NCBI RefSeq assembly: GCF_016424485.1
Contig: NZ_JAELUP010000004.1
Span: 64,345 to 128,344 of the forward strand
From: Paenibacillus roseus
Lineage (GTDB): Bacteria > Bacillota > Bacilli > Paenibacillales > Paenibacillaceae
Direction of reading: 5' to 3'
DNA: 64,000 bases
Positions 6,619 through 25,890 of the stretch are shown piece by piece. The notes beneath the pieces are model-generated. The model was given only the letters and a program-made list of their open reading frames with translations, was not told where the DNA came from and ran no database searches. Within the stretch, counting starts at the first letter, position 1. Each line of letters opens with the position of its first letter. The translations under genes and the position numbers were made by a program.

Positions 6619-6724
6619 ATTCCCATAATGGTTCCATTTAACCTATCGTTTCTTTCATATTGTTTTTATGTGGTTTATCGTTGTGTTAACTTTGTAAAGC
6701 GACCGTTAAATCTCTCGAAAGCAG

Positions 6725-6753
6725 TTGAAACGTTCCGTTTTTGCGAGTATGAT
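6725..6753 (+). promoter_or_regulatory. Promoter of phosphonate catabolic operon
   Basis: TTGAAA at 6725-6730, 17-base spacer, TATGAT at 6748-6753. The shared bipartite motif starts eight bases after the -10 box. Confidence 0.7.
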
Positions 6754-6760
6754 GATTGTG

Positions 6761-6796
6761 AACAACATAATTAAAACTAAAAACACAAGAAAACAA
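6761..6796 (+). promoter_or_regulatory. Candidate DeoR-type operator, copy 1
   Basis: AACAACAT (6761-6768), 16 bases, then ACAAGAAAACAA (6785-6796). The same two blocks at the same spacing lie upstream of the ABC importer (13409-13444). The position just after the -10 box suits a repressor. That the DeoR regulator at 18161 binds it is inferred. Confidence 0.6.
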
Positions 6797-6828
6797 CTTT
6801 AGAATCCAAACTTGGGGAGATGGATCTT

Positions 6829-7806
6829 GTGAAAAACAAAATTTACTTAGATCGCAACAAAACAACGTACAAAGGCAATTTGCACCTTCACACCACATGG
6901 TCGGATGGATCGCTGCCGGCCGATCAAGTTGTCGAAGCTTTTAAAGCCAAAGGCTATCACTTCATTTCTTTATCCGATCATGAGGTGTATACGAGAACGA
7001 CCGAATTCAATGGCGAAGATTTCATTACATTGCCGGGAATGGAAAGAGGCGGACTGAATCTGGTTGCGGACAAAGATCCGGGTTATCACTTTGGTGTTCT
7101 TGATGATCCGACTGTAGAGCCGGAACAGAAGAGATTCGAACATTTGCAAACTTTCCCGACGCCAATCCCATGGGAAGGCGACCATTCGCCGCAGGACTTG
7201 ATTGATAAGATGCGTGCCCACGGCAATCTGGTTGTGTTCAATCACCCGGAATGGCATTTGACGCGTTTTGAAGATATGGTGAAATACGATGGATTTTTCG
7301 CGATTGAAATCTATAATCACGCTACGGAGTGGTCGACGTCAAGCTCTTACGGCGCAGCTTATTGGGATCATGCACTGCAGAACGGCAAACGCGTATTCGG
7401 AACCGCTGCAGACGACTCCCATGAGCATAACCCGAATTGGAACATCCCCGAATATGGCGGTGGCTGGGTACAGGTTCAAGCGGATGCGTTAACGCCTGCA
7501 AGCATTGTAAGCAATCTGAAAGAAGGCCGATTCTATTCGAGCAGCGGGCCTGAAATTTATGATCTGCGAGTGGAGGACGGGCAACTGGCGATTGAATGCT
7601 CGCCATGCAAGTTTATTATGTTTAAGGCATTCCCACTGAGAGGACCATTCGTCGGGAATTTCGAGAATGGCGAACCGCTGACGTTCGCATCCATGACCAT
7701 CGAAGAGGACATGCAGTACATTCGAGTGGAATGTGTTGACTTTGAAGGAAAAGTAGCTTGGTCCAATCCGGTGTTTGTCGCCGATCTGCTCCAGGAAGGG
7801 GAATAA
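6829..7806 (+). CDS. PHP-domain (CehA/McbA-like) metallohydrolase 1
   Basis: I chose the GTG at 6829, nine bases after GGGGAG; an ATG at 6820 touches that site directly, and the GTG start aligns exactly with the start of the next gene. The 325-aa protein opens with YKGNLHLHTTWSDGS, the PHP-domain HxH metal motif (H19, H21), followed by ISLSDHE and NHPEWH near residue 145 and AADDSHEHN near 195. PHP proteins hydrolyse phosphate esters or related bonds using two or three metal ions. It is the first gene of the phosphonate operon, next to a paralogue. A role in releasing a phosphonate from an ester or conjugate is inferred. No signal peptide: cytoplasmic. Confidence 0.85.
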   Translation: MKNKIYLDRNKTTYKGNLHLHTTWSDGSLPADQVVEAFKAKGYHFISLSDHEVYTRTTEFNGEDFITLPGMERGGLNLVADKDPGYHFGVLDDPTVEPEQKRFEHLQTFPTPIPWEGDHSPQDLIDKMRAHGNLVVFNHPEWHLTRFEDMVKYDGFFAIEIYNHATEWSTSSSYGAAYWDHALQNGKRVFGTAADDSHEHNPNWNIPEYGGGWVQVQADALTPASIVSNLKEGRFYSSSGPEIYDLRVEDGQLAIECSPCKFIMFKAFPLRGPFVGNFENGEPLTFASMTIEEDMQYIRVECVDFEGKVAWSNPVFVADLLQEGE

Positions 7807-7807
7807 A

Positions 7808-8764
7808 ATGAAATCGATCATCTATCTGGACGGGAGAAAGCTCAAATATAAGGGGAATCTTCATACGCATTCTACACGAAGCGACGGACAGTATGAGCCT
7901 GAAACGGTCATCCATGCTTATAAGAACAAGGGCTATGACTTCATGTGCTTGAGTGATCACGAAATTTATTTCAAATCCGATGCGTACGACGATGATCGCT
8001 TCATCATGATAGATGGTTATGAAATGGCATGTGAGATGAGCTGGCAGAAGATGGCCCAGCAGTATCATATTCATGGCTTGCTTGATCGGTCGTTGCAATC
8101 GGACTGCGAATTTGAGCATGACGAAGAACATGCGAAGCCGGATTATGAAAGCCTGGATACCATTCAGGAATTAATTGACGACATGCGGCATAAAGGCAAT
8201 TTGGTCATTATGAACCATCCGGAATGGTCCCGGAATAAACCGGAGGATTTATTGCAGTTGAACAACTATTTTGCCATTGAAATCTACAATCATCAGTCAG
8301 AGCTTGATGAAGCGGTTGGCTTCGGGGTTAACCACTGGGATTATCTCCTGAAAAATGGCCGGAAAGTGTTCGGGATTGCGGGAGATGATGCCCATGGCGG
8401 GGAGATAGACGCCGCGATTTCCGAGTTCTTCGGAGGCTGGGTTGAGGTAGAAGCAGAAAAGCTGGAACAGCAATCGATCATTAACGCCTTAAAGAGCGGC
8501 CATTATTACTCATCAAGCGGCCCGCAAATTACGGACCTTCGTGTGGAGGATGGTTTTATCAAGATCGAATGCTCACCTGTAAAGTTTATTAAATTTATTA
8601 CGCATCCTTTCAATGGTCGCACTTTATATCACCAAGATGCCTCTTCAATAAGCACAGGAGCTTACAGGATTGAAGGCAATGAGCAATATATCCGTATCGA
8701 ATGCGTGGACTTCGCAGGCAATATCGCCTGGTCCAACCCCATTTTTCCGGCGGATTTGCAGTAG
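7808..8764 (+). CDS. PHP-domain (CehA/McbA-like) metallohydrolase 2
   Basis: ATG at 7808 comes one base after the stop of its paralogue and is preceded by GAAGGGGAA. The 318-aa protein aligns with hydrolase 1 along its whole length: YKGNLHTHSTRSDGQ (HxH at 19/21), CLSDHEIY, NHPEWSR, FAIEIYNHQSE, GDDAHGGE and SSSGPQITDLRVEDG. All expected metal-ligand segments are kept, so both copies look active. Clear divergence in the middle (about residues 60-110) suggests different substrates rather than a fresh duplication. It lies between hydrolase 1 and a MATE transporter in the same operon and is probably translated together with hydrolase 1. Confidence 0.85.
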   Translation: MKSIIYLDGRKLKYKGNLHTHSTRSDGQYEPETVIHAYKNKGYDFMCLSDHEIYFKSDAYDDDRFIMIDGYEMACEMSWQKMAQQYHIHGLLDRSLQSDCEFEHDEEHAKPDYESLDTIQELIDDMRHKGNLVIMNHPEWSRNKPEDLLQLNNYFAIEIYNHQSELDEAVGFGVNHWDYLLKNGRKVFGIAGDDAHGGEIDAAISEFFGGWVEVEAEKLEQQSIINALKSGHYYSSSGPQITDLRVEDGFIKIECSPVKFIKFITHPFNGRTLYHQDASSISTGAYRIEGNEQYIRIECVDFAGNIAWSNPIFPADLQ

Positions 8765-8772
8765 GAGGACAT

Positions 8773-10137
8773 TTGAGCACCTTGGATTTGCAATTCCGCA
8801 TCGATATGAGGAAGCTCGTCCTGCCATCGGTATTACAGATGCTGGTCGGGAATTCATTCTCTCTGATCAACACGCTGATGGTTGGAAGTTTGGGAGACGC
8901 AGCCGTTGCAGCTATTGCAGCAGCAGGTCAAATCAGTTTCATTCTCAGTATGATTTTATCCGCCATTTTCGGGATAACCGCATTCATTACACAATTTTAC
9001 GGCAAAGCAGACAGGATGAATATGAGAAAAGCATTTGGTCTTATGCTCATTTCCAGTGTCGTCATTACTTTAGTAGTATGTGCCTTGGTGTCTGGGTTCA
9101 AAGAGCCGATCTTATCACTTTTTATGAAAGATGAAGTTGCTGTTGCATATGGCGTTCATTATTTATCGGTTATCGTATTTGTTTACCTGATTAATTCCAT
9201 CAAAGATGTCTACGGGAGCGCGCTTGGCTCAATCGGTCAAGTGAAGCTGACGCTGGTTGTCGGCGTGATTGCGATGATTGTGAATGTAGGATTGGATTAT
9301 GTCCTCATTTATGGAAAATTGGGATTTCCGAGGTACGGCATTGTCGGCGCGGCTTGGGCAACACTCGTTTCATCGATGATTGGCGCAATTCTGTTAATCG
9401 GTTACGTCTATTGGAAAAAATACGAAATTAATCTCAAATTAAGAGAACTATTTTCATTGGATTGGCCTTTCATCAAAAAAGTATATGGAACAACGTTGCC
9501 CCTTCTGTTTCATGAAGGAATGTGGTCGATCGGCAACATGCTTTATGCCGTTGCATTCGGTCATCTTGGCGTAGCTGCCCTTGCGACTTTTCAACTGGCG
9601 AACACATTTCAAGGGTATTTTATGGTCGGAATCTTCGGCTTCGCCTATGCGGCTAAAGTGATGATCGGTCAAAAACTAAGCCTGGAGAGTCCGGACGAAG
9701 CGATTGTATACGCGCGCAAATTCACCCGGATTGGATTGTATGCCGCATTGATCGCAAGCGTAGTCATTCTTCTAATAAGTCCTTTTCTCTACAAGTTGTT
9801 CCCGAATCTGAGCACGGAAGTGCAGTCATCTTTCCGCAACATCATGATTATTCAAGCTTTGGTCATGGTCATGTTCTTCTTGAACAATTTATGGATTGTG
9901 GGCATGTTCAGGGCAGGTGGCGACAACCTGTATACGATGAATTTAATTTTGATTACAACGTGGGTTATCACGTTGCCGCTTGTATTTGCTGGCGCGTACT
10001 GGTTTCGTTGGCCGGTAGAATGGGTGTATCTGATGTTCACGCTGGAGGAAGTGTCAAAGGCCTGTATCGGGTTCTTTAGATATCGCTCCAACAAATGGGC
10101 TCGGAATCTCGTGCGTGACCTACAGGAGGAATTATGA
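8773..10137 (+). CDS. MATE-family multidrug/metabolite transporter
   Basis: The TTG at 8773 follows TAGGAGG with short but normal spacing and gives MSTLDLQFRIDMRKLVLP; the longer frame overlaps the previous gene and has no ribosome binding site. The 454-aa product has the length and about 12 hydrophobic segments of a MATE transporter, with the family-typical LPSVLQMLVGNSFSLINTLMVG start and a mid-protein repeat (TLPLLFHEGMWSIGNML). MATE proteins are Na+ or H+ antiporters that usually export small molecules. Its place inside a catabolic operon is unusual; it may export a toxic by-product or a released moiety, or move the substrate. It ends in an ATGA overlap with phnW. Confidence 0.88.
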   Translation: MSTLDLQFRIDMRKLVLPSVLQMLVGNSFSLINTLMVGSLGDAAVAAIAAAGQISFILSMILSAIFGITAFITQFYGKADRMNMRKAFGLMLISSVVITLVVCALVSGFKEPILSLFMKDEVAVAYGVHYLSVIVFVYLINSIKDVYGSALGSIGQVKLTLVVGVIAMIVNVGLDYVLIYGKLGFPRYGIVGAAWATLVSSMIGAILLIGYVYWKKYEINLKLRELFSLDWPFIKKVYGTTLPLLFHEGMWSIGNMLYAVAFGHLGVAALATFQLANTFQGYFMVGIFGFAYAAKVMIGQKLSLESPDEAIVYARKFTRIGLYAALIASVVILLISPFLYKLFPNLSTEVQSSFRNIMIIQALVMVMFFLNNLWIVGMFRAGGDNLYTMNLILITTWVITLPLVFAGAYWFRWPVEWVYLMFTLEEVSKACIGFFRYRSNKWARNLVRDLQEEL

Positions 10138-11243
10138 GCAATCCCTATTTATTATTGACGCCTGGCCCGCTATCAACGACGTCGTCCGTTAAGGAAGCGA
10201 TGCTCAAAGACTGGTGTACCTGGGATGACGACTATAAGCAAATTGTGCAGTCGATACGAAGCAAGCTGCTTCAAGTCGGCCAAGTATCGGAAGCGCATTA
10301 TACGACCGTATTCATGCAAGGCAGCGGAACATTCGGAGTCGAAGCTGCTATTGGAACGGCAGTACCTGCAGACGGCAAGCTCCTCATTCTGGTTAATGGC
10401 GCCTACGGCACCCGTATGCAGGACATTGCGAAGGTGCTTGGCATCCGATCCGAAACATTGGTGTTTGCTTTTAATCAGAAGCTGGATGTGGAACAAGTAA
10501 ATGAAGCGCTGGAGCGGGACGATGAGATCACACATGTTGCCTTTGTCCATTGTGAGACGTCGACAGGAATTTTAAATCCGATTGACAAATTGATGAAGGT
10601 CATTAAACGACATCGTAAAATCGCAATTGTTGACGCGATGAGCAGCTTCGGCGGCATTCCGATAGCAGTGGAGGATTTGGGCATCGATTACGTCATCAGC
10701 AGCGCCAATAAATGCATTCAGGGCGTTCCCGGCTTCAGCTTCATCTTGTGCAGGATAAGTGAATTGGCCAAGTGCGAAGGCCGTGCCCGATCCCTGTCCT
10801 TGGACGTGTACGACCAATGGCGGGTAATGGACAGCGAACCGGGAAAATGGCGGTTTACTTCTCCTACACATGTCGTTCGCGCCTTTCATCAGGCATTGAT
10901 CGAACTTGAGCAAGAAGGCGGGGTGGAGAAACGCCACGAAAGGTATGTGCTTCACCAGTTGGCGTTAGTTTCCTTGATGGAGAAGGCAGGCTTTGCTACT
11001 CTTCTTCCTAAATCTTTGCAATCGCCGATTATTACAACGTTTAAATATCCGCTCCATAGCGAATTCACATTCGAATCGTTCTATCGTTTTCTTAAGGAGA
11101 AAGGCTTTGTGATCTATCCTGGAAAGTTAAGCGAGGAACATGTTTTTCGAATTGGCACAATCGGTGACATCAGTATGGAAAAAATGATTGAGCTTGGCAA
11201 GGCTGTGTCTGCGTATGTGACGGACATAATGGGAGGGCAATGA
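10134..11243 (+). CDS. phnW: 2-aminoethylphosphonate:pyruvate transaminase PhnW
   Basis: The 369-aa protein matches PhnW from end to end: YLLLTPGPLSTT at the start, the substrate region KDWCTWDDDY, the glycine-rich FMQGSGTFGVEA, FVHCETSTG, VDAMSSFGG (PLP Asp) and SSANKCIQGVPG with the Schiff-base Lys. It transfers the amino group of 2-aminoethylphosphonate to pyruvate, making phosphonoacetaldehyde and alanine. The ATG overlaps the MATE stop codon (ATGA), so translation is probably coupled. phnX follows after three bases. The enzyme is PLP-dependent and cytoplasmic. Confidence 0.95.
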   Translation: MSNPYLLLTPGPLSTTSSVKEAMLKDWCTWDDDYKQIVQSIRSKLLQVGQVSEAHYTTVFMQGSGTFGVEAAIGTAVPADGKLLILVNGAYGTRMQDIAKVLGIRSETLVFAFNQKLDVEQVNEALERDDEITHVAFVHCETSTGILNPIDKLMKVIKRHRKIAIVDAMSSFGGIPIAVEDLGIDYVISSANKCIQGVPGFSFILCRISELAKCEGRARSLSLDVYDQWRVMDSEPGKWRFTSPTHVVRAFHQALIELEQEGGVEKRHERYVLHQLALVSLMEKAGFATLLPKSLQSPIITTFKYPLHSEFTFESFYRFLKEKGFVIYPGKLSEEHVFRIGTIGDISMEKMIELGKAVSAYVTDIMGGQ

Positions 11244-11246
11244 ACC

Positions 11247-12077
11247 ATGAAAGTGAATGGCGTAATTATGGACTGGGCAGGTACGGCAGTGGATTACGGA
11301 TGTATGGCGCCTGTCCACGTATTTATCGATATATTCAGATCCAAAGGCATCGAACCGACGCTGGAGGAAGTACGGGCTCCGATGGGACTGCTGAAATGGG
11401 ATCATATGAAAACGATGCTGGAGATGCCTCGAATCGGGAAGCTGTTTGAAGAGCAGATGGGGCGTCCATATAACGACAGTGATGTCGATGAGATGCACGA
11501 AGAATTTGAACCGAAGCTGCTTGCGATTCTTCATGGTTTCGCAGAGCCGATTGAGCATGTCGTAGATGTTGTCAAGCAACTGCGGCAGGCTGGCTTGAAA
11601 ATCGGAGGTACGACCGGGTACAACGACGTGATGATGAAAATTGTTGCCGACAAAGCGGAGGAGTCAGGTTACGCGCCGGATTATTTTGTCACACCGGATG
11701 GTGTGAAAGGTAAAGGCCGCCCGTCGCCATATATGATCTATGCCAACATGATTCAATTGGATATGGGAGTGCCATCACAAGTTGTGAAGGTTGGCGATAC
11801 GGAATCAGATATGCAAGAAGCAAGAAACGCCGGGGTTTGGGCCATAGGTGTCATCAAAGGAAGCTCCATGCTGGGTTTGACCGAAGATGAAGTCGACCGT
11901 TTGGAAGCGGATGAGCTAACAAGCTTGATGGACGTCGCAAGAAGCCGGTTCATGCAGAGCGGAGCACATGCTGTTATTGAAGACATGTCACAGTTGCCTG
12001 ACATTATTGAAACCATTAATCATCGTTTGCAGGAAGGGGAACAATCAAGTGGATGTAAAACCCTTTTTAAGAACTGA
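11247..12077 (+). CDS. phnX: Phosphonoacetaldehyde hydrolase PhnX (phosphonatase)
   Basis: The 276-aa HAD-fold protein has the phosphonatase hallmarks: MDWAGTAVDYG with the nucleophile Asp, the cap-domain lysine segment MGLLKWDHMK used for Schiff-base formation with the substrate, GGTTGYN (motif 2), and VKVGDTESDMQEARNAG (motif 4). It cleaves the C-P bond of phosphonoacetaldehyde to acetaldehyde and phosphate, directly after PhnW in the pathway. The ATG is three bases after the phnW stop, preceded by GGGAGG. Its 3' end overlaps the next gene by 29 bases. The C-terminal tail (EQSSGCKTLFKN) lies within that overlap. Confidence 0.95.
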   Translation: MKVNGVIMDWAGTAVDYGCMAPVHVFIDIFRSKGIEPTLEEVRAPMGLLKWDHMKTMLEMPRIGKLFEEQMGRPYNDSDVDEMHEEFEPKLLAILHGFAEPIEHVVDVVKQLRQAGLKIGGTTGYNDVMMKIVADKAEESGYAPDYFVTPDGVKGKGRPSPYMIYANMIQLDMGVPSQVVKVGDTESDMQEARNAGVWAIGVIKGSSMLGLTEDEVDRLEADELTSLMDVARSRFMQSGAHAVIEDMSQLPDIIETINHRLQEGEQSSGCKTLFKN

Positions 12078-13407
12078 AGGGGATATTAATTTATCGAACG
12101 AGCGTCGTGAATGGCAGGAGAATCACTTGAGCCAGCAAACGTTGGATGTATTGGAGGAAGACAGTCGTTATTTCCTTCATCAGTCGATGTCCACGCCCTG
12201 CTTGAATGTGATCACGGATGCCGAGGGTATTTATTTGGAGGATATGGACGGCCGCAAAATTATAGATTTTCATGGCAATAGCGTCCATCAAGTTGGGCAT
12301 AAAAACCGTTATGTCATCGATGCAATGAAGAATCAGCTGGATGAATTGCCTTTTTTACCGCGTCGCTATACGAGCCCTATTGCCGTTAAATTGGCCAAGA
12401 AGCTGGTGGACCTGGCGCCTGGCGATCTGAATCGGGTATTATTTACGCCGGGCGGTACCAGTGCGGTCGGATTGGCGATGAAACTTGCGCGGAAAGCAAC
12501 GGGGAAGTTTAAAACCATATCGACATGGGATTCCTTTCATGGCGCTGGTCTGGATGCCATTTCCGTTGGAGGCGAAGGGGTATTCCGCAATCAGATCGGA
12601 CCGCTGCTGCCGGGCGCCGAGCATATGATGCCATACAATTCGTATCGCGGTCTCTTCAGTGGCAGTGAAGATAGCGGCATGAAGTCGCTGGAATATCTGG
12701 CGTATATGCTGGAGATGGAGAATGATATCGGGGCAATTATTATGGAGCCGATACGGAGTACCGATGTTCAGATTCCTCCTAAAGCCTACTTCCAGAGAAT
12801 TCGCCAGCTTTGTGATCAATATGGCGTTCTTCTCATATTGGACGAAATTCCTGGAGCATTCGGAAGAACGGGGAAAATGTTCGTCCATGAGCATTATGAT
12901 ATTGTCCCGGATATCGTCGTGATCGGCAAAGGGTTCGGCGGAGGGGTGTTCCCGATGGCAGGGATCATTGCCCGCGAAGGCCTGAACGTAGCTCAAGATA
13001 TTTCGCTTGGTCATTACACCCATGAGAAGAGTTCAGTAGGCTGTGCGGCTGCATTGGCTACAATTGAATTCATTGAAAACCACAATCTGCTGGCTCATGC
13101 CGAGCAAATGGGCGTATTCATGGAACAGCGTCTTAAGGAAATGATGGACAGGCATGAAATTGTTGGAGATGTGCGTGTTAAGGGAATGCTCGCAGGGGTG
13201 GAGCTTGTCACGAATCGTCAAACGAAAGAAAAAGCAGTAGAAGGAGCCGAGAAGGTCATGTACCGTTGTCTGGAGAAGGGCCTTAGCTTTAAAGTTTCGA
13301 ATGGCAATGTTATTACTTTGGTTCCGCCCCTAATTGCCACACAAGGGGAGGTAGAACAGGCGTTGTCCATTTTGGAGGAAGCAATTGGAGACGTTTTTAC
13401 AAATTAA
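12049..13407 (+). CDS. pbfA: Class III PLP enzyme, probable PbfA (1-hydroxy-2-aminoethylphosphonate ammonia-lyase)
   Basis: The GTG at 12049, preceded by GGAAGGGGA, gives MDVKPFLRTEGDINLSN; a longer frame from 11968 lies inside phnX without a ribosome binding site. The 452-aa protein has the class III aminotransferase fold: FHGNSVHQVGH, TPGGTSAVGLAMK, DSFHGAG, IIMEPIR, LILDEIPGAFGRTG and VVIGKGFGGGV with the PLP Lys. PbfA, known from Vibrio and others, is a class III PLP lyase that turns (R)-2-amino-1-hydroxyethylphosphonate into phosphonoacetaldehyde, feeding PhnX, and is commonly encoded with phnW and phnX. That context is the main reason for this name. A related amino-phosphonate or ethanolamine-phosphate lyase or transaminase is the alternative. 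Confidence 0.72.
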   Translation: MDVKPFLRTEGDINLSNERREWQENHLSQQTLDVLEEDSRYFLHQSMSTPCLNVITDAEGIYLEDMDGRKIIDFHGNSVHQVGHKNRYVIDAMKNQLDELPFLPRRYTSPIAVKLAKKLVDLAPGDLNRVLFTPGGTSAVGLAMKLARKATGKFKTISTWDSFHGAGLDAISVGGEGVFRNQIGPLLPGAEHMMPYNSYRGLFSGSEDSGMKSLEYLAYMLEMENDIGAIIMEPIRSTDVQIPPKAYFQRIRQLCDQYGVLLILDEIPGAFGRTGKMFVHEHYDIVPDIVVIGKGFGGGVFPMAGIIAREGLNVAQDISLGHYTHEKSSVGCAAALATIEFIENHNLLAHAEQMGVFMEQRLKEMMDRHEIVGDVRVKGMLAGVELVTNRQTKEKAVEGAEKVMYRCLEKGLSFKVSNGNVITLVPPLIATQGEVEQALSILEEAIGDVFTN

Positions 13408-13408
13408 A

Positions 13409-13444
13409 AACAACATTATTTCATAATAAACAACAAGAAAACAA
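13409..13444 (+). promoter_or_regulatory. Candidate DeoR-type operator, copy 2
   Basis: AACAACAT (13409-13416) and ACAAGAAAACAA (13433-13444), identical to copy 1 in both blocks and in the 16-base spacing. It starts two bases after the pbfA stop and lies 126 bases before the binding-protein start. I could not place a convincing -35/-10 pair here. Confidence 0.6.
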
Positions 13445-13570
13445 ATAATCAATGTGTTTTAATCTTCTTTTTACACTCGAAACGTATACTTGGTTTGTAG
13501 GACAAAATGATCAACAACAGAATGAGTAAGCAAAAAATGAGTGAGGACATCTTAATGAGGAGCTGAACAA

Positions 13571-14953
13571 ATGAAAAAGCTTATTATTGCTGCTTTGAGT
13601 ATGGTCGTGAGTGTAGGGTTATTGGCTGGTTGTGCACCGAACAAAGGATCGGATTCCCCGGTGACGCAAGGCAATTCCGGTTCTGCCGGCAAAGGAGAGA
13701 ACACAAAAGTCGTGACCATTTCTGTTCGTGAGAACAATTGGGGAGCGCGCAAAGATAACTTCGTCGAAGCCGAGAAGCGTGTCAATGAAGATTTGAAAGC
13801 GGAAGGCGTTCAAGTGAAAATCGATTGGTGGCCGGGAATTGGCGATGACGAGCTGATTCTCCAGGCGCAAGCTGGCAAAGCAGCGGACGTCTTCATTAAT
13901 TCCAGTGTGGATATTGGATGGCAGCGTGACGCAGGAATCATCCAGGCTGTTGACTGGGTGAAAGATTCTAAAGTGTTTAAGAACGTGCCGGAATCGTATA
14001 CAAATATTATGCAGTACGAGGGCCATTATTATGGCGCTATCCAGGACATGGATGCTTCCCCGGTATTCATTAGCCGCAAAGCGCTGCAGGGTCTCGGTTG
14101 GACGGACGAGCAAATCAATGGTTTGAAGGGCCGTGTAGATTCCGGAGACTTCACATTCGGCGATTTGGTCGATCTGGCAGACGAAGCGAAGAAGAAAAGT
14201 CTGGTAAAAATCGGCTTCGCCGTAGAAGACATCCGATTCGAAGGTTGGAACTATACGTTCGGCAATTATAACTATAATCCGGAACAGAACAAGATGGTTC
14301 TTGCTGCCAAGGCGAAGGATGTCTACTCTTTCTGGGCTGATGCGGTGAAGCGCGGAGTCATTGCGGAAGGCATCGCAGATATTGATACAGATAAGGCTGC
14401 GCCTATGTTTGTCAAAGGAGACGTTTTTGCTGAGTTTGCCCGTACGGAATTTTATCAAATGATGCGCGAAGCCAATGGAATGAAAGATAATATCGAAGGC
14501 TACAATGCCTGGTTCAAAGAAAATGTGGTATGGATTCCCGTACCATCAGCGACCAAAGGCGGCAAGCCGTCCTCGTACAGCAACCCGGCTATGATCTTCG
14601 TAGGTCCTAAAGTCGATGATGCGAAAATGCCATACGTGCAAAAACTGATTGAACATGTTCTTGATGCTGATCTGCAGGTCAACCATACGATTGCCAGCGG
14701 AAAACTGCCTGTCACGCCTGAAGCTCAAGCGGACCCGCGCTTTAAAGAAATGGAGTTCTACAAAGACCATGCATACCTGGTTGAGTTCACTCGGACTCGT
14801 CCGCCACAACCGGATTATGCTGTCTTTGTTAAAGGCTATACGTTGGGCGTAGACGCGATTCTGACCAAAGGCAAGTCCGCAGATGAAGCGTATGACTTAT
14901 TCAAAAAGGATGTTAAGCAAAATGTTCCTGCGGATCGGGTCATCATTGAATAA
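13571..14953 (+). CDS. ABC importer solute-binding lipoprotein (family 1 / UgpB-MalE type)
   Basis: ATG at 13571 follows GAGGAGC. The 460-aa protein begins with a lipoprotein signal peptide ending in the lipobox LLAGC (Cys 21) and a Ser/Gly-rich linker, so it is anchored outside the membrane. The body is an extracellular solute-binding protein of the large carbohydrate/glycerol-phosphate/oligosaccharide class, rich in aromatic residues (VKIDWWPGIGDD, GWNYTFGNYNYN, TEFYQMM). Such proteins bind rather large polar ligands, not free aminoethylphosphonate, which usually uses PhnD or AepX-type proteins. The permeases and ATPase follow, with repeat R4 and a hairpin in the gap, a layout that typically leaves the binding protein in excess. 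Confidence 0.88.
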   Translation: MKKLIIAALSMVVSVGLLAGCAPNKGSDSPVTQGNSGSAGKGENTKVVTISVRENNWGARKDNFVEAEKRVNEDLKAEGVQVKIDWWPGIGDDELILQAQAGKAADVFINSSVDIGWQRDAGIIQAVDWVKDSKVFKNVPESYTNIMQYEGHYYGAIQDMDASPVFISRKALQGLGWTDEQINGLKGRVDSGDFTFGDLVDLADEAKKKSLVKIGFAVEDIRFEGWNYTFGNYNYNPEQNKMVLAAKAKDVYSFWADAVKRGVIAEGIADIDTDKAAPMFVKGDVFAEFARTEFYQMMREANGMKDNIEGYNAWFKENVVWIPVPSATKGGKPSSYSNPAMIFVGPKVDDAKMPYVQKLIEHVLDADLQVNHTIASGKLPVTPEAQADPRFKEMEFYKDHAYLVEFTRTRPPQPDYAVFVKGYTLGVDAILTKGKSADEAYDLFKKDVKQNVPADRVIIE

Positions 14954-14955
14954 GG

Positions 14956-15118
14956 CCAGGCCTGCGTGTGAAAGGTTCTTCCGATCGCTGTTGTTCCCGG
15001 ATTTCTTGAATGAACGGTAGTAACAGGGGAAATCCGGGAACAAAGGCGAGCGCTCCGCTTCTCCAGAATCCTTTCACACTCCGGTTACCCGCCACCGTGT
15101 CTTAAGTACAACTTATAT
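14956..15118 (+). repeat. Palindromic element copy R4 (type B)
   Basis: Starts two bases after the stop of the binding-protein gene and ends with ACAACTTATATAG. Outer stem TGTGAAAGG / CCTTTCACA; inner stem GTTCCCGGATTTC / GAAATCCGGGAAC (perfect); conserved blocks TTCTTCCGATCGCTGTT and CGCTTCTCCAGAAT. The left terminal repeat seen in R6 is absent here. Confidence 0.9.
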
Positions 15119-15137
15119 AGCAAGAGTCTTTCTTAAC

Positions 15138-15178
15138 GGAAGGTGCTCTAATCCAGGTTAGGGCGCCTTCCATTTCAT
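15138..15178 (+). terminator. Intercistronic terminator/attenuator between binding protein and permeases
   Basis: GGAAGGTGCTCTAA pairs with TTAGGGCGCCTTCC (a few non-canonical pairs), followed by ATTTCATTTT. Since no promoter is evident after it, partial read-through is likely, giving less permease than binding protein. Confidence 0.65.
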
Positions 15179-15196
15179 TTTAGCGAAAGCTGGTGA

Positions 15197-16135
15197 ATGG
15201 TCGGTATGGAAAACGCAGTGCCTCAAGCGTACAAAAAACCGTTCAGCAAAAAAATCTATCCTTATTTGTTCATTATGCCGTTTGCGTTGCTGGTATTTGT
15301 CTTTTTCATCTTGCCTGCCATCGCGACAGTAGTAATGGCATTTACGGATTTAAATGCATCGTTGAAACCAAAATTCGTCGGCTTTAGTAATTTTGCGAAA
15401 ATATTCTCGGACTACAATCTGCCGCAAATATTATGGAATTCAGCTATCTTTGCTGTTTTGTCTTTAGCCTTCTCCCTGATCTTTGCGCTGATTATAGCTA
15501 TTGCGACGCAATATTTTCTGAAAGGCAAAGTATCAGCCGTTATCTACAGAGTGCTGTGGCTGATTCCAAGTATTATCCCTGCTGTTGTCTATGTTACATT
15601 TTGGAAGTACGTATTCGATCCTACGGATGAAGGATTTCTTAATAGCTTGATGCATGACTTCGGCATCACCACTGATCCTGTGTCCTGGTTTACGAAAGGC
15701 GCGATGGGAATTGTAATCCTGGCGACGATCGTTTCCACCATTTCGGGGGGCATGATCTTGTTATCAGCTGCTATTAACTCCATCCCCGAAGACTTATACA
15801 AAGCCGCCCGTGTTGATGGAGCGAGTGAGAAGTCGGTTATTTTCAAAATCATTCTGCCTACTTTGAAATGGCCCTTAATGTATATTACCATCTCAGAGCT
15901 GATCGGCTTCGTATCGTCGTACTTCTTCATCATGCTTTTGACAAACGGAGGACCGATGAGAGATACGACAACCTTGTCTCTCTATGCTTATCAGCAGGCC
16001 TTCAACCTCAAGTATTACGGTTATGGTGCGGCCGTTTCATTAATTGTCGTGCTGATTTCATTTGTGCTGACTTTATTTTTCTTACGCCTGTTCGATTTTG
16101 ACCAGATGATTAAACGCTCCAGAATTGAGGATTAA
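15197..16135 (+). CDS. ABC importer permease (MalF/UgpA type)
   Basis: The 312-aa protein has about six membrane segments and the cytoplasmic EAA loop (EDLYKAARVDGASEKSVIFK) that docks on the ATPase. The N-terminus KKIYPYLFIMPFALLVFVFF is typical for the first permease of carbohydrate-class (CUT1) importers. The ATG at 15197 has only a weak ribosome binding site; the ATG at 15206 is an alternative. It forms the membrane channel with the next gene product. The substrate is inferred from context to be a phosphonate conjugate. Confidence 0.88.
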   Translation: MVGMENAVPQAYKKPFSKKIYPYLFIMPFALLVFVFFILPAIATVVMAFTDLNASLKPKFVGFSNFAKIFSDYNLPQILWNSAIFAVLSLAFSLIFALIIAIATQYFLKGKVSAVIYRVLWLIPSIIPAVVYVTFWKYVFDPTDEGFLNSLMHDFGITTDPVSWFTKGAMGIVILATIVSTISGGMILLSAAINSIPEDLYKAARVDGASEKSVIFKIILPTLKWPLMYITISELIGFVSSYFFIMLLTNGGPMRDTTTLSLYAYQQAFNLKYYGYGAAVSLIVVLISFVLTLFFLRLFDFDQMIKRSRIED

Positions 16136-16155
16136 TCCAGGGAGGAAACAGCCCG

Positions 16156-16986
16156 ATGTCAACAAGTACGCTCAAAAAAGCGCTTGTACACACGTACATG
16201 ACGTTGTTTACGCTGCCTATTGCGGCTATGATCGTGTGGTACTTTCTTGCGGCGACCATGAACTTTACAACCGGACAATTCTCCTTGGACAATTTCTCGT
16301 TTTTCCAGGAGCCTGTTCAATATTCCGGAGTGAAGCTGCCGATGATCTGGCCGATTGTTTTGAATACGATGATGTATTCGATATTAATTGTGATCATTGA
16401 GGCGTGCATATCTGTGCCTACTGCGTATGCCTTCTCAAGACTGGATTTCAAGGGAAGACGATCCGCAATGAAGTTTTTGTTCCTGATGCGGTCCTTTCCG
16501 GGCATCACCCTTATTATCGCGACTTTCTTTATCCTTGTGCAGATGAATCTGGTTAATACGTATTTGGGCGTTCTGCTTGTTGCGGTTACCGGTTCCTTGC
16601 CTGGGCGCGTCTATATTATGAAAGGTTTTTTCGACGAAGTTCCATGGGATATCGAATGGGCAGCCATGGTCGATGGATGCACCCGATTTGGCGCTTTCAA
16701 GAAAGTGCTGGTTCCTTACGTTCTTCCCGGAATCGGAGCAATTGCGGTATTCTCGTTTCTCGGCGCTTACGGGGAATGGTTTTTGTTCAAGCTGCTTATA
16801 TTCAATGACGATATGCTGACGCTTGCCGGCTATTTATCCAAACTGGTAACGAAAGAAAATCAAATCGTCAATTACGGTTTGATTACCGCCATCGGATTAT
16901 TCTATACGCTGCCTATTGTTGTGTTTTATATATTCACCCAGAAAATATTCATGAAGGTGAACTTGGGAGGAGCGAAGCAGGTATGA
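16156..16986 (+). CDS. ABC importer permease (MalG/UgpE type)
   Basis: ATG at 16156 follows CAGGGAGGAA. The 276-aa protein has six predicted membrane helices and the EAA-type loop (PWDIEWAAMVDGCTRFGAFK) near residue 170, normal for the second CUT1 permease. It lies 20 bases after the first permease and overlaps the ATPase start by an ATGA. One periplasmic-side loop (about residues 35-65) is longer than usual. It works as a heterodimer with the MalF-type permease. Confidence 0.88.
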   Translation: MSTSTLKKALVHTYMTLFTLPIAAMIVWYFLAATMNFTTGQFSLDNFSFFQEPVQYSGVKLPMIWPIVLNTMMYSILIVIIEACISVPTAYAFSRLDFKGRRSAMKFLFLMRSFPGITLIIATFFILVQMNLVNTYLGVLLVAVTGSLPGRVYIMKGFFDEVPWDIEWAAMVDGCTRFGAFKKVLVPYVLPGIGAIAVFSFLGAYGEWFLFKLLIFNDDMLTLAGYLSKLVTKENQIVNYGLITAIGLFYTLPIVVFYIFTQKIFMKVNLGGAKQV

Positions 16987-18098
16987 TTACGTTGAAAAAT
17001 ATCGTCAAGGCATATGACGGCAAGCAAGCAGGCAACAAAGCTGTGGACGGCTTGAATCTGGAGATTAACAAAGGCGAATTCGTAGCTTTGCTCGGACCTT
17101 CCGGGTGCGGGAAAACGACGACGTTAATGATGCTTGCAGGACTGCTGAAACCAACAGCGGGAGAAATCTATTTTGGCGAGCGGCTGGTCAATCACGTGGA
17201 GCCGAAAGACCGCAATATCGGAATGGTCTTTCAATCGTATGCATTGTATCCGCATCTGACCGTCAGGGATAACATTGCCTTTCCGTTAAGAGAACGGAAG
17301 ATTCCCAAGCAGGAAGCCTATGCGCGCGCCAAGGAAACGAGTAAGATTTTGCAAATCGATCATTTGCTGGATCGTAAACCGTCTCAATTATCGGGTGGGC
17401 AGCAGCAGCGGGTAGCAATGGCGAGAGCGCTCTCGAAGAATCCGGAAATTCTGTTGCTGGACGAGCCGATGTCCAATCTGGATGCAAGATTGAAGCTGGA
17501 TGTACGGGACGAAATTCGCAAAATCCAGTTGAGCCTGGGCGTAACTACAATTATCGTCACCCATGATCAGGAAGAGGCGCTGGCGATTTCCGATCGCGTG
17601 GCCATCTTGAACGGCGGCAAAATTCAGCAATACGCCGCACCGCATGAATTATTCAATTATCCGATCAACTTATTCGTGGCAAGCTTTCTGGGCAGCCCTC
17701 CGATGAATCTGGTGGACGGCAAGCTGGAGGACAAATCCGGGGACCAGGTTGTGGTGACAGATGGCTTTGAATACAAACTTCCGGAGGACAAAATATTGGA
17801 CCGGACCTATATGGGGAAGACGATTAAATTCGGTATTCGGCCGCATGACCTTGTAGTCTGTGACAAAAACGATAATCAGGCGATTCCGATGAAGGTTGAT
17901 TTGGTTGAGCATCTGGGCAGCGGGAAGCTGGTGAAGGTGACGGACACGCAGGGAAAACTCGAAACGATGATCCGGTTGCTGACGGATAATGAAAAAGAAA
18001 TCCAGCCGGGAGATTTGATTTATATCAAAGTCAAAGCAAATAAATTTCATCTTTTCGATATGACAAATAACGGCCAAAGTATATATTATACATGTTAA
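16983..18098 (+). CDS. ABC importer ATPase (MalK/UgpC/MsmX type)
   Basis: The 371-aa protein has Walker A GPSGCGKTT, Q-loop VFQSYALYPHLTV, signature LSGGQQQRVAMARAL, Walker B ILLLDEP, the D-loop MSNLDA and the switch His in IIVTHDQEEA, followed by a C-terminal OB-fold (TOBE) regulatory domain (about 240-365), as in MalK and UgpC. It powers the two permeases on the cytoplasmic face. The start overlaps the upstream permease stop (ATGA), showing coupling. An extended -10 box for the DeoR gene begins five bases after its stop. Confidence 0.93.
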   Translation: MITLKNIVKAYDGKQAGNKAVDGLNLEINKGEFVALLGPSGCGKTTTLMMLAGLLKPTAGEIYFGERLVNHVEPKDRNIGMVFQSYALYPHLTVRDNIAFPLRERKIPKQEAYARAKETSKILQIDHLLDRKPSQLSGGQQQRVAMARALSKNPEILLLDEPMSNLDARLKLDVRDEIRKIQLSLGVTTIIVTHDQEEALAISDRVAILNGGKIQQYAAPHELFNYPINLFVASFLGSPPMNLVDGKLEDKSGDQVVVTDGFEYKLPEDKILDRTYMGKTIKFGIRPHDLVVCDKNDNQAIPMKVDLVEHLGSGKLVKVTDTQGKLETMIRLLTDNEKEIQPGDLIYIKVKANKFHLFDMTNNGQSIYYTC

Positions 18099-18160: not shown

Positions 18161-18955
18161 GTGTCGCTTGCAGGAGAAGAACGGCGGATAGGCATAATGA
18201 CTCTGCTCAATGAGAAGGGGAAAGTCATTGCGAGCGAGCTTTCCCAGTTGTTCGAAGTGTCAACGGAAACGATCCGAAGAGATCTGGATGAACTGGAGAA
18301 AGATAATAAGCTCAAGAAGGTCTATGGCGGCGCAGTCAAGTTCAAAGTGGAAGTAGAGCCGGCCCACTACGAAAGAGAGATTATTCGTGCGGAAGCAAAG
18401 CGCAAGATCGGTTTTCTGGCCGCGGGGTTAATCGAGGACAACGATGTGATTGTCATTGATGAAGGAAGCACCGCCCTGCAAATTATTCATTTTCTGGATA
18501 ATAAACATAATCTGACGATTTTGACCAGTTCCATTCCTGCTCTTATGCTGCTGATTGAACATCAAAAACGGGGAATTTTTGACGGCAAGATTATATTTAT
18601 TGGCGGAGAAGTCAATGCCAAGCATCTGCGCGTGTCCGGGCCAATTGCCGAGAAAATAATGGAAGATTTCTTCGTCAATAAATCGTTTGTTTCTGTGGAC
18701 GGGATTTCATTGGAACACGGCGTTACGAGCTATGACTATGATCGCTCCTTTTTCACAAGGAAATTAATAAACTGCTCGGAGACCTCGATCGTAGTGGCGG
18801 ATCACTCCAAAATTGCAAAACGTACGGTAGCCAAAATTACCGATCTGGCAGATATTCACATTGTGGTGTCCGATCAAGCCCCTCCTGAAGAATGGGCAGC
18901 AGGATTGGACAACCTTAATTTGCGCTGGATACATGACTCTAAAGAGGTGAATTAA
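18161..18955 (+). CDS. DeoR/GlpR-family transcriptional regulator
   Basis: GTG at 18161 is preceded by AAGGGGGGAG. The 264-aa protein has the DeoR N-terminal winged helix (about residues 8-55; VIASELSQLFEVSTETIRRD followed by LDELEKD) and the sugar-phosphate-sensing DeoRC domain with IDEGSTALQ, LTILTSSIPA, FIGGEV and SVDGISLEHGVTSYD. Members usually repress catabolic operons and are released by a phosphorylated intermediate. Its position at the end of the ABC operon suggests that it controls the phosphonate regulon through the bipartite motif at 6761 and 13409. No copy of that motif is seen before its own gene. Its ligand could be a phosphorylated or phosphonylated breakdown product. Confidence 0.9.
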   Translation: MSLAGEERRIGIMTLLNEKGKVIASELSQLFEVSTETIRRDLDELEKDNKLKKVYGGAVKFKVEVEPAHYEREIIRAEAKRKIGFLAAGLIEDNDVIVIDEGSTALQIIHFLDNKHNLTILTSSIPALMLLIEHQKRGIFDGKIIFIGGEVNAKHLRVSGPIAEKIMEDFFVNKSFVSVDGISLEHGVTSYDYDRSFFTRKLINCSETSIVVADHSKIAKRTVAKITDLADIHIVVSDQAPPEEWAAGLDNLNLRWIHDSKEVN

Positions 18956-20647: not shown

Positions 20648-20803
20648 TCTAGGGTTCCGAGCTATAAAAGAGGCTGGCTGGTCCGAGAGAAAACGCAGTT
20701 ATTGCAATAAGCAGTAGCTGTCCACGGCGGGATAAAAGCCCGGGAGAATCTGTCAAAGCCTGTGTGTGCTTTGCTTTTTCTCCCGGGCTTTTATCTATTT
20801 TTT
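20648..20803 (+). ncRNA. Guanidine-I (ykkC) riboswitch with expression platform
   Basis: The conserved guanidine-I elements are present in order: CTAGGGTTCCG, CTGGTCCGAGAGAAAACGCA, CACGGCGGGATAAAAGCCCG and GGGAGA. The last element (20731-20748) is also the left arm of an 18-bp terminator whose right arm is 20778-20795, followed by TATTTTTT. Guanidine binding keeps the left arm in the aptamer and lets transcription continue; without it the terminator forms. This is a genetic ON switch and identifies the operon as one for guanidine rather than urea. Confidence 0.95.
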
Positions 20804-20829
20804 CAGCCCATTTCGAGGAGGTATGCGAT

Positions 20830-21552
20830 ATGACAAAAGTTTTTACGGTTCAAGCAGGGGAAAAATGGTCTGGCATTATCGGGCGTGGAAGGTTGATTAA
20901 CATGAAAGCTCTCGGGAACCGTTCCAATCTTTCGGCACTCTTCTTTCACGCCCCGTATTTTTCCGAGCGCTATAATATGCCGGATACATTGAAAGCACAG
21001 CATAGCGCTTATTTAACGCAAGGCCATATTCTAATGAGCGACCAGGGCAAGGCCATGATCTCGATTACGGAGGATAGCGTTGGCTGGCATGATCCGTTAT
21101 CCGGGTATACAACAAGAAGCGGGACGGATGCCAAATACGGGTTGACCCGCTATCAGACGGAGCGCAATAACTGGTACCGAAGCGGTGCGGAGAACTTCAC
21201 GGTGGAAATGTATCGGCATCAGCTAACGCCAAGGGATCTGACCACGCCGGTCAACTTTTTCTCCAAGGTAGTGTGCGAGCTGGACGGCTCCATGAGATAC
21301 ATGAGTCAGGAAACTGCGGGACGCAGCGTCACACTGCGAACCGAGATGGATGTGCTGGTCGTCTTCTCCAACACTCCGAATCCGTTCGATCCGGACACCG
21401 GATACCCGACCACTGCCATCGAGATTGCAGTGAGCGATGCGCGGCCCTTGCAAGAGGATGACTGCTGTCTGAACTATTGCGCCGAGAACCGAAGGGCTTT
21501 CGAGAATACATGGAACGCTTACGAACTGATGAGGGGAGCTATTCAATCATGA
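20830..21552 (+). CDS. cgdA: Carboxyguanidine deiminase subunit (UAAP1 type, DUF1989)
   Basis: ATG at 20830 follows GAGGAGG at 20815-20821. The 240-aa protein has the DUF1989 fold and the UAAP1 hallmarks: [42 protein letters not shown] and TPVNFFSKV. Proteins once called urea carboxylase-associated proteins 1 and 2 form a heteromeric carboxyguanidine deiminase (CgdAB) that makes allophanate and ammonia from carboxyguanidine. It is the first gene after the riboswitch. The ATGA overlap with the next gene couples the two subunits, as expected for a complex. The assignment of letter A to this subunit follows the UAAP1/UAAP2 order and is less certain than the family. Confidence 0.88.
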
Positions 21553-22223
21553 CTACGACAGCATTTACTTCTGTAACCAGCGCGTTTGATCCGAAGGATG
21601 CCGTATATGATCATATCATTCCGGCAGGTGAAGGCTGGCTGCATGATCTGCTGCCCGGACAGATACTGCGTATTGTGGATATGGAGGGCAATCAGGCGGT
21701 AGATACTTTGTTTTACTCGACTGAGGAGCCTTCCGACCATTACAGTGCCATTCGTACCATTACGAATCAGAACAATCTTTATTTGACGACCGGTTCTGTG
21801 CTTCTTGCAGAATCAGGGCGCGAGCTGTTGCGAATTATCGCTGACACTTGCGGCAGGCATGATACGATTGGCGGGGCCTGCTCCGCGCAGAGCAATACAG
21901 TTCGCTATTCGCACGATACGCTGCCGATGCATAATTGCCGGGACACGTTTATGCTGATGCTGTCCAGCCGCAGCGAGTTCACCAAACGGGACTTGGCTCC
22001 GAATGTCAACTTCTTCATGAATGTGCCGGTGACACCGGAAGGGAAGCTGACCTTTGCAGACGGCATCTCAGGTCCAGGGCGTTACGTGGAACTGACTGCA
22101 CTCACTGCGGTCACGGTGCTGATCAGCAATTGTCCGCAGCTTAATAACCCGTGCAACGCCTATAATCCGACACCGGCGCGGGTGTTGATCTGGAATGGGG
22201 AGGGGGAACAGAATCATGTTTAA
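21549..22223 (+). CDS. cgdB: Carboxyguanidine deiminase subunit (UAAP2 type, DUF1989)
   Basis: ATG at 21549 overlaps the previous stop (ATGA). The 224-aa protein has the UAAP2 pattern: [50 protein letters not shown] and [12 protein letters not shown], with Cys and His residues in positions typical of the metal-binding DUF1989 family. It pairs with the upstream subunit to deiminate carboxyguanidine. The last eight bases overlap the carboxylase gene. No targeting signal is present, so it is cytoplasmic. Confidence 0.88.
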
Positions 22224-25200
22224 CAAAGTTTTAATTGCCAACAGAGGAGCTATTGCAGTGCGAATTATCCGTACGCTGAAGAAAATGGGCATCGCATCGG
22301 TTGCCGTCTATACACGCGCGGATCGGGACAGTCTCCATGTGGCGATGGCGGATGAAGCGGCTGAGATCGGAGAAGGGCCGGCAAAGGAAAGCTATGTAAA
22401 CGCGGAGTTGATTTTGCAGACGGCAATTGCATTCGGGGCGGACGCTATTCATCCCGGATACGGATTTTTAAGTGAAAATTCCTCCTTCGCCCAAGCTTGT
22501 GCCAGGGAAGGCATCACATTTATTGGTCCGTCTCCCGCGCATATCGAGCTGTTCGGGCTGAAACATACAGCAAGAGACATGGCGCGGCAGGCTGGTGTGC
22601 CGCTCTTGCCGGGCACCGGGCTGATGGGCAATCTGGGTGAGGCAATCGAACATGGGGCGACGATTGGCTATCCTGTCATGCTCAAGAGCACAGCCGGAGG
22701 CGGGGGCATCGGAATGCGCATATGCGAGAGTGAAGCTGCGTTGACAGAAGCCTATGAATCCGTTACACGTCTGGCGGCGGCTAATTTTAACGACGGCGGT
22801 GTGTTTCTGGAAAAATATATCCCGCGCGCCAGACATATCGAGGTGCAAATCTTCGGCAATGCCTATGGTGAAGCGGTAGCGCTCGGAGAGCGGGATTGCT
22901 CGGTACAGCGCCGCAATCAGAAAATCATCGAAGAAACACCTGCTCCGATGCTGCCGGAGGCTGTTCGCAGGGAAATGCATGAGAGCGCCAGAAAGCTTGC
23001 TGCTGCTTCCTCCTACCGGAATGCGGGAACGGTCGAATTTTTGTACGATGCGGATACCAAGCGCTATTATTTTCTAGAGGTGAATACCCGGTTGCAGGTG
23101 GAGCACGGAGTAACGGAGGAAGTGCTGGGTATCGATCTGGTAGAGTGGATGATTGTGGAGGCGGCGGGGCAATTGCAGGGTTTGACGGGAAGGCTGCGGG
23201 AGCCGCAAGGACATAGCCTGCAAGTTCGTCTTTATGCTGAGGATTGCGATCAGGATTTTCGACCAAGCGATGGACAGATTGATGGCATTGTCTGGCCGGA
23301 GAACGCGCGGGTGGAGACCTGGATTCAGCCGGGTGCCAAAGTCACGACGCTGTATGATCCGATGTTGGCGAAATTGATTGTCCATGCAGATTCAAGAGAC
23401 GAAGCCATCAGGCGAATGATTGCATGTCTGGACGAACTTCGTGTGTACGGAATAACGACCAATCAGGCATACATTGAGGCTTTTCTTGGGACGGAAGCTT
23501 TTCAGAGCGGTCATGTCTATACGAGTATGTTGACCGGGTTCAAGCCTGCAGAGCGGGCGATTGAAGTGATAGATGGCGGAATCCAGACGACGGTCCAGGA
23601 CTATCCGGGGCGTATCGGCTATTGGGATATCGGGGTGCCGCCATCGGGGCCAATGGATGCACTGGCATTCAGACTGGGCAACCGGATGCTGGGCAATGAT
23701 GAGTCCGCTGCTGGCCTGGAAATGACCCTGCGCGGGGGCGCCTACCGATTCCGGGACAGCTTGTTGTTTTGTCTGACCGGCGCTGATATGTCGGCAACGC
23801 TGGACGGCGAGCGGGTACCGCTCTATACTCCGGTAAAAGCTGCCCCAGGTTCGGTACTGACCTTTGGCGAATCTTTGACCGGGATGCGGGGCTATCTGCT
23901 GGTGGCTGGCGGATTGGATATGCCGCTTACACTGGGCAGCACCTCAACCTTTACGCTTGGCGGCTTCGGCGGTCATGGCGGCAGCGCACTGCGGCCCGGA
24001 GCTGTGCTGCGCGTCAAGCCGCAAACACAACCTGATATACAGCCTGTTTCTATGCAGCCGCTTCCGTTGGAGTCCCGTCCTTTACTGGCTAACGAATGGA
24101 CAATCGGCGTCATTCCGGGTCCGCATTGTACCCAGGAATATCTGCTCCCTGCTTACTTGAAGCAATTGACCGACACCGTGTGGGAAGTGCATTTTAACAG
24201 TTCTCGCACGGGGGTGCGTCTGATTGGTCCGGCTCCGCTATGGGCAAGGGAAGACGGCGGCGACGCGGGACTTCATCCATCCAATATTCATGACAATGCT
24301 TATGCGGTGGGCGCGCTGGATTTGACAGGAGATATGCCGATCCTGTTGGGCCCGGACGGTCCGAGCCTTGGCGGGTTCGTCTGTCCGGTGACAACGGCAT
24401 CCGCTGAATTGTGGAAGATCGGGCAGCTTCGTCCGGGCGACAAAATCCGGTTCCAATTGATCTCGGTTGAAGAAGCCGCAAGGATGCGGCAGCAACAGGA
24501 GCGGTTTCTTAGCAGGATCATCGGGAGGGGGGCGTCTGCGGATAATTCGGAACCGGCTGAGAATGGGACACAGTTGCCGGCATTGCCGCTTTTGCCTGAA
24601 CGCTCCAGTGACAACTACAATCCGGTGCTTGCTTATGAGGAAAAGGGGAGACGCTTCAAGCTGGCAATTCGCTGCTCAGGCGATGAGAACATTCTGATTG
24701 AATACGGCGACAGGGAGCTTGATCTATTATATCGCTTCCAGGTGTACGTGCTTATGCAAGCCGTCAAGGAGAGCGGCAGCATTCCATATATCGACATGAC
24801 TCCCGGCATTCGTTCTTTGCAAATTCATCTGGACCGGACGCGCATCACGGTGCGGGAGGCGGCAGCCCGTGTTCTGGAACTGGACTTGACCCTGCCTCCC
24901 CTGGAATCCATCGAGGTGCCGTCACGGATCGTGAAGCTTCCATTGTCATGGGATGATCCGGCAACCAGGCTGGCTATTGAACGCTATCAGCAAAATGTTC
25001 GCCCGGACGCGCCATGGTGTCCGAGCAATCTGGAGTTTATCCGGCGGATTAACGGTCTAGGCTCCATTGAAGAGGTAGCGGAAGTAGTGTTTAACGCATC
25101 GTATCTTGTCATGGGGCTGGGGGATGTCTATTTGGGGGCGCCAGTTGCGGTACCGCTTGATCCGCGTCACAGGCTGGTGACAACCAAATACAACCCTGCG

Positions 25201-25890
25201 CGGACATGGACGCCGGAGAATGCCGTCGGTATTGGCGGAGCCTACTTGTGCGTATACGGTATGGAAGGTCCGGGCGGCTATCAGTTCGTGGGGCGGACCG
25301 TGCAAATGTGGAATAAATTCCGCTCGACAGCGAATTTTGAGTCTGGCAAACCATGGCTGCTCCGTTTTTTTGACCAGATCCGTTTTTACCCGGTTACGGA
25401 GGAAGAGCTGCTGCACATGAGAGAAGATTTTCTGCGCGGGGACTTTACCGTCGAAACGGAAGAGACGAAGTTCCGCCTGGGAGACTATTTGAGTTGGCTG
25501 GAGACGATTCAGGGAGAATCGGATCTGTTCAGACAATCGCGGCAAGCCGCTTTTCAGCAGGAAAGAGAGTTATGGAAGCAGCTTGGTATTGCAGAGCATG
25601 TGGCCGAGTCTGAGGCCGCGGCTGGACAGGAAGAGGGCGCTTTGCCGGAGGGCAGCGTGGCGATGAACAGCTCTATGTCCGGCAGTGTATGGAAAGTGCT
25701 GGTGGAACCGGGGCAAACGGTTAACAAGGGTGACACCATTATTATAGAAGAAAGCATGAAGATGGAATTCCATCAGCAAGCGCCGTTCAGCGGAGTTATT
25801 GCGTCTGTGTTGGTGTCGCCAGGTGATCAGGTCCGCGCTGGAGACTGTATTGCCGCCATTTATCCGCAAGAGGAGGAGATCGCATCATGA
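22216..25890 (+). CDS. Biotin-dependent guanidine carboxylase (urea carboxylase family)
   Basis: ATG at 22216 follows GGGGAGGGGGAAC. The 1224-aa multifunctional enzyme contains, in order, biotin carboxylase (about 1-450: [17 protein letters not shown]-grasp [28 protein letters not shown]), the two KipA/KipI-like carboxyltransferase domains (about 460-780, [14 protein letters not shown]; and about 820-1020), and a C-terminal biotinyl domain with [10 protein letters not shown] (biotin Lys). It carboxylates guanidine (or urea) using bicarbonate and ATP. The guanidine riboswitch and adjacent CgdAB genes indicate guanidine as substrate. Residues that would discriminate urea from guanidine were not checked. 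Length is normal for the family. Confidence 0.93.

Follow-up and report, generated by a model that had tools for sequence, protein, structure and literature searches.

The phosphonate locus of Paenibacillus roseus raises the question of whether its two operons, one for enzymes and one for an importer, answer to a common regulator, and through which DNA sites. The locus lies in a stretch of 64,000 nucleotides (the window; contig NZ_JAELUP010000004.1, positions 64,345 to 128,344, with the coordinates below counted from its first base). The enzyme operon (6820–13407, plus strand) comprises six genes, which encode two CehA/McbA (PHP) metallohydrolases, a MATE transporter, PhnW, PhnX and PbfA; the last three are phosphonatase pathway enzymes that score above cut-off with the equivalog-level models TIGR02326, TIGR01422 and NF049939. 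The importer operon (13571–18098, plus strand) encodes a solute-binding protein, two permeases and an ATPase, and is followed by the gene for a DeoR-family regulator (18161–18955, plus strand). The protein made from the latter matches HTH_DeoR (E 8e-16) and DeoRC (E 9e-41), and PF08220 (58 bits) and PF00455 (139.9 bits), which both exceed their cut-offs, place it in the DeoR family; its sensor domain matches the deoxyribose operon repressor structure 7l6l, and no NCBIfam subfamily reaches its cut-off with this protein, the best being AgaR with 159.7 of 260. The tandem CehA/McbA-type hydrolase genes and the MATE gene (6820–10137) are tied to the phosphonate pathway by their place in the operon, and their substrates are perhaps phosphonate esters or conjugates.

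The preliminary description of this DNA had reported a bipartite sequence, AACAACAT-N16-ACAAGAAAACAA, in two exact copies ahead of the two operons. Both copies are indeed present with 0 mismatches (6761–6796 and 13409–13444), and the gene layout confirms their placement: the first ends 23 bp 5′ of the ATG at 6820, and the second starts right after the last stop codon of the enzyme operon and ends 126 bp ahead of the first importer gene. When ≤3 mismatches are allowed, the window contains no third match (shuffling expectation 0.00), and the genome-wide scan that had been proposed as a check returned only 2 matches in 5.37 Mb (5,365,102 bases), both forward and each ahead of one operon, with 0 on the reverse strand and 0 for a reversed-pattern control, so there is no excess of random matches. 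The bipartite structure itself did not hold up. The 16 bp “spacer” contains weaker repeat units at both sites, and the notion of a meaningless spacer was dropped for this reason; a unit scan instead describes operators 1 and 2 as tandem arrays of about four AAACAAC-like direct repeats at 9–11 bp steps. Written in lines of ∼10 bp, the first of the two arrays as listed reads GAACAACAT/AATTAAAACTA/AAAACACAAGA/AAACAAC, and the second reads AAACAACATT/ATTTCATAAT/AAACAACAAG/AAAACAAATA.

An array scan for four AAACAACA-like units at 9–11 bp steps (maximum score 32) found exactly three arrays in the window at a score ≥23: operator 1 (6760–6799, plus strand), operator 2 (13408–13447, plus strand) and a third, inverted array (6647–6686, minus strand, where it contains ACACAACGATAAACCACATAAAAACAATATGAAAGAAACG; 25/32 in the window). 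Thus the two matched sites of the preliminary description stand, but as four-unit arrays, and they are joined by a third. At this stringency, sites of this kind are limited here to one pathway, as would be expected of a local regulon: the 2 genome-wide matches at ≤3 mismatches and the inverted array; more degenerate copies may exist elsewhere. Operators of the DeoR family are direct repeats with a period of 10–11 bp (PMC3870299); the direct-repeat character that had been ascribed to DeoR-type sites agrees with this, and the present arrays have it too, being four imperfect units at 9–11 bp steps in a promoter or 5′ UTR. Operators 1 and 2 have an array score of 25/32, and in 1.8 Mb of Markov-shuffled sequence there were zero arrays with a score ≥24. 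Against composition-matched shuffles of its own promoter, operator 1 has a P of ∼0.001–0.002. In the same type of shuffle operator 2 reaches only 0.015–0.06, a score like its own being not rare in A-rich promoter sequence, and its significance therefore derives from its exact match to operator 1 and from conservation.

The arrays stand in close contact with promoter elements. A sigma-A-type promoter, TTGAAA-N17-TATGAT (6725–6753, plus strand), is conserved before the enzyme operon in relatives; operator 1 begins 6–7 bp past its −10 and covers about +1 to +40, which, as judged from this predicted promoter, is the position of a classical repressor. Upstream of the promoter are the PhoP-box-like hexamers GTTAAC, GTAAAG and GTTAAA (6685–6710, plus strand; the last two 11 bp apart), which are conserved in an alignment of 31 promoters and are putatively assigned to PhoP, and the inverted array adjoins them on the upstream side. 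The importer operon has the −10 element TATACT (13485–13490, plus strand); operator 2 ends ∼38 bp ahead of it and so lies at about −89 to −50, and the interval contains PhoP-box-like 11 bp repeats (13448–13475, plus strand), the first of them degenerate in the window. In relatives this interval reads TTAACG-N5-TTAATC-N5-TTTACA, a layout with the 11 bp period of Bacillus Pho boxes. In most relatives 13–16 of 18 importer promoter positions fit the Pho hexamers; the window copy fits less well, and the enzyme promoters fit partially. PhoP-activated promoters of Bacillus likewise have TTWACA-like repeats of 11 bp period just upstream of the −10, but here the repeats adjoin DeoR arrays. The preliminary description did not report the PhoP-box-like elements, and it is new here that the arrays adjoin such 11 bp repeats and sigma-A promoters. 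The genome has a single exact match to a three-hexamer Pho pattern; it separates phoR- and phoP-like genes and lies a few kb ahead of pstS. This position speaks for TTWACA repeats as the PhoP box of this genome; on the other hand, a generic three-hexamer PhoP pattern does not flag the window's own phosphonate promoters, and for this reason Pho control of them is called no more than probable. PhoP, WalR or some other two-component response regulator might be thought to bind the arrays as well, since such regulators also recognize direct repeats of ∼11 bp and PhoP-box-like repeats lie alongside; this seems very improbable, as the AAACAAC unit is unlike the TTTACA boxes of the organism's own phoR-phoP/pst locus and the arrays track a particular DeoR clade (see below).

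Alignments of the promoters show which of these elements are retained. Among the importer promoters (n = 14, the window and 13 relatives), the −10 is the best-conserved stretch, with a mean pairwise identity of 0.90; the operator follows at 0.77 and the Pho-like part at 0.70, compared to 0.36 just upstream of the operator and 0.32 between the Pho box and the −10. Among the enzyme promoters (n = 31), the operator reaches 0.71 versus 0.41 in the −35/−10 spacer. Roughly 20 of the 31 enzyme (PHP1) promoters also have an inverted array (score ≥22) ∼90–200 bp upstream of the main one, at offsets of ∼91–113 and 188–198 bp; the phasing of the pair on the helix is suggestive, though not decisive. Such an arrangement allows a DNA loop without proving one. 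The arrays are very A-rich and operator 1 is inside the presumed 5′ leader, which could be taken to mean that they are simply DNA of low complexity in a promoter or leader, or an element that acts at the RNA level; however, the C positions of the repeat units are kept across diverged species, and operator 2 and the inverted arrays lie outside the transcript leader and on either strand, so an explanation without a bound protein is hardly credible.

If the arrays are bound by the DeoR protein, as the preliminary description had proposed, they should accompany its gene. A search of 396 genomes of the family (ortholog cut-off E ≤ 1e-95) found the DeoR ortholog in 38 and the first enzyme gene in 32, all of which also have the DeoR ortholog. 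Most sites in relatives escaped a search with the exact bipartite pattern but were recovered by the unit-array scan. In the loci around deoR that were inspected in 37 relatives, an array (score ≥24) precedes the phosphonate operon or operons in 34, whatever the gene content, and nearly all array matches in relatives stand ahead of phosphonate operons; the three loci in which a deoR ortholog has no array nearby also have no intact phosphonate neighbours. Some of the loci that carry the operator are much reduced, two to phnW-phnX-deoR and two to pbfA-deoR; in eleven others mate-deoR and the next operon are present along with the operator, and in one genome mate-deoR, the enzyme operon and the importer operon are separate, each with its own array. 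The gene common to operator-bearing loci of such varied content is deoR. Four loci (L056, L057, L058 and L061) have a second PbfA-like gene, 46–48% identical, which separates the importer ATPase gene from deoR. As deoR is mostly linked to the operons, its co-occurrence with the operator is due in part to this physical linkage and to shared ancestry. Among the genomes with an orphan deoR, an operator search gave no match in G318 and G127. In G218, where the deoR ortholog is not flanked by phosphonate genes, an operator-like array (L118:9723–9762) lies 20 bp ahead of a metallophosphoesterase gene that is followed by a PHP-type gene; it is possibly an unlinked target or a chance match, as it has 3 mismatches and the reversed control pattern gave one chance match in the same 12 genomes.

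Homologous clusters that have a different DeoR protein provide the contrast. PhnX homologs occur in 100 of the 396 genomes, and 40 further phn clusters were inspected, of which 24 are of a type whose DeoR, called DeoR3, is divergent (∼30% identical), and 13 have a paralog, DeoR2. None of the 24 phnWX clusters of the DeoR3 type has an array with a score ≥24; the DeoR3 gene is visible inside the inspected sequence in about half of these, and the others share the ABC-phnW-phnX layout in sequences that end ahead of that gene. This absence, and the way the array follows the DeoR clade through rearranged loci, make common control by the protein at 18161 the best-supported reading of the sequences, and it counts as well against the array being mere A-rich DNA. 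The control clusters do have Pho-like repeats and TATACT before the transporter, as read from their sequence, without AAC arrays; the Pho-like and AAC parts are therefore separable, which argues against PhoP or a similar regulator as the protein that binds the arrays. Nor is the contrast one of lineage only, since one genus (g9) includes genomes of both kinds. Members of the DeoR clade share an almost invariant recognition-helix region, V[ST]TETIRRDLDELEK; DeoR3 has ISVDTLRRDLNLLT there. The clusters with DeoR2, which is 46–50% identical, have related but weaker arrays (score 23–26) in 10 of 13 cases, not always directly before phnX. Several genomes (L158–L168, L194, L196 and L197) carry a second phnX-phnW-deoR2 cluster with such weaker AAC arrays, and cross-talk between DeoR and DeoR2 is possible there. 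In the clusters of the divergent DeoR (L171–L193 and L195), the Pho-like repeats and TATACT are preceded by other repeated motifs (ATATGCATAATTTAC), which are perhaps the operator of that protein in the same position.

The arrays are thus very probably the operators of the local DeoR-family protein, which would act as a repressor that is released by a metabolite. Its bound form is probably a multimer that contacts four direct repeats, each one turn of the helix from the next. At the enzyme operon this multimer would cover about +1 to +40 and block initiation or promoter clearance, and the inverted upstream array may strengthen repression by cooperative binding or by a loop. At the importer operon, DeoR would occupy about −89 to −50, abutting the Pho-like repeats, and most simply keep PhoP from activating; from the sequence, interference with PhoP and activation are both possible at this site. 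A role as an activator at both sites, or at the importer promoter only with repression at the enzyme promoter, aiding PhoP or RNA polymerase, would suit operator 2, which adjoins the Pho-like repeats on their upstream side in every importer promoter aligned, and the inverted arrays, which occupy the equivalent place in many enzyme promoters. Most DeoR-family regulators are repressors, which makes such a role unlikely, and operator 1 comes after the −10; DeoR-family sites there, in 5′ UTRs or on promoters, indicate repressors (PMC8579813). With DeoR as a repressor, uptake of phosphonate would lead to a pathway metabolite that releases it. The smallest operator-bearing operons encode only PhnW-PhnX or PbfA, and their common metabolite, phosphonoacetaldehyde, the product of both PhnW and PbfA, is the best guess for the inducer and nothing more than that. 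As the deoR gene lies within or beside the importer operon, it is probably autoregulated, and, as the arrays lie beside PhoP-box-like repeats, induction probably needs phosphate shortage and a phosphonate signal together. The sensor domains of DeoR-family proteins are a class known for phosphorylated sugars. A more elaborate scheme can be offered tentatively, in which this domain has been adapted to a C-P compound (phosphonoacetaldehyde) and the head-to-head arrays flank the PhoP sites in a repression loop, giving an AND gate whose inputs are phosphate starvation and phosphonate supply.

This looks like a so far undescribed local regulon of a familiar, ordinary type. The Bacillus subtilis IolR protein, also of the DeoR family, has a tandem direct-repeat operator with several ∼11-mer repeats per site and a CAA core (compared here by description); it governs the inositol pathway and is not known to be linked to Pho boxes. 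RhaR is similarly a local DeoR-family regulator with imperfect 10–11 bp direct repeats and one to several operons per genome (PMC3870299), but it serves rhamnose catabolism rather than phosphonates and its operators have two repeats, with other unit sequences, rather than about four. A 2023 review of phosphonate catabolism describes LysR-type regulators for C-P hydrolase operons and none of the DeoR family; AepR, PhnR and PalR exert the same substrate-specific local control of phosphonate hydrolysis as is proposed here, but they are LysR-type proteins described in Proteobacteria rather than a DeoR-family protein with direct-repeat operators (PMC10574752). A search of the open-access literature found nothing relevant on DeoR with phosphonate genes. 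The arrays provide a concrete candidate regulon for aminophosphonate use in this bacterial family (the relatives include Cohnella and Paenibacillus), in which the adjacency of DeoR and Pho-like elements would account for the integration of the substrate signal with the phosphate signal; this combination and the inducer are its points of interest, and a phosphonate biosensor might be built from the locus. Downstream in the window (20764–27644) are genes that, by eye from their translations, resemble those for urea carboxylase-associated proteins, urea carboxylase and allophanate hydrolase, and have the appearance of a separate nitrogen-scavenging locus.
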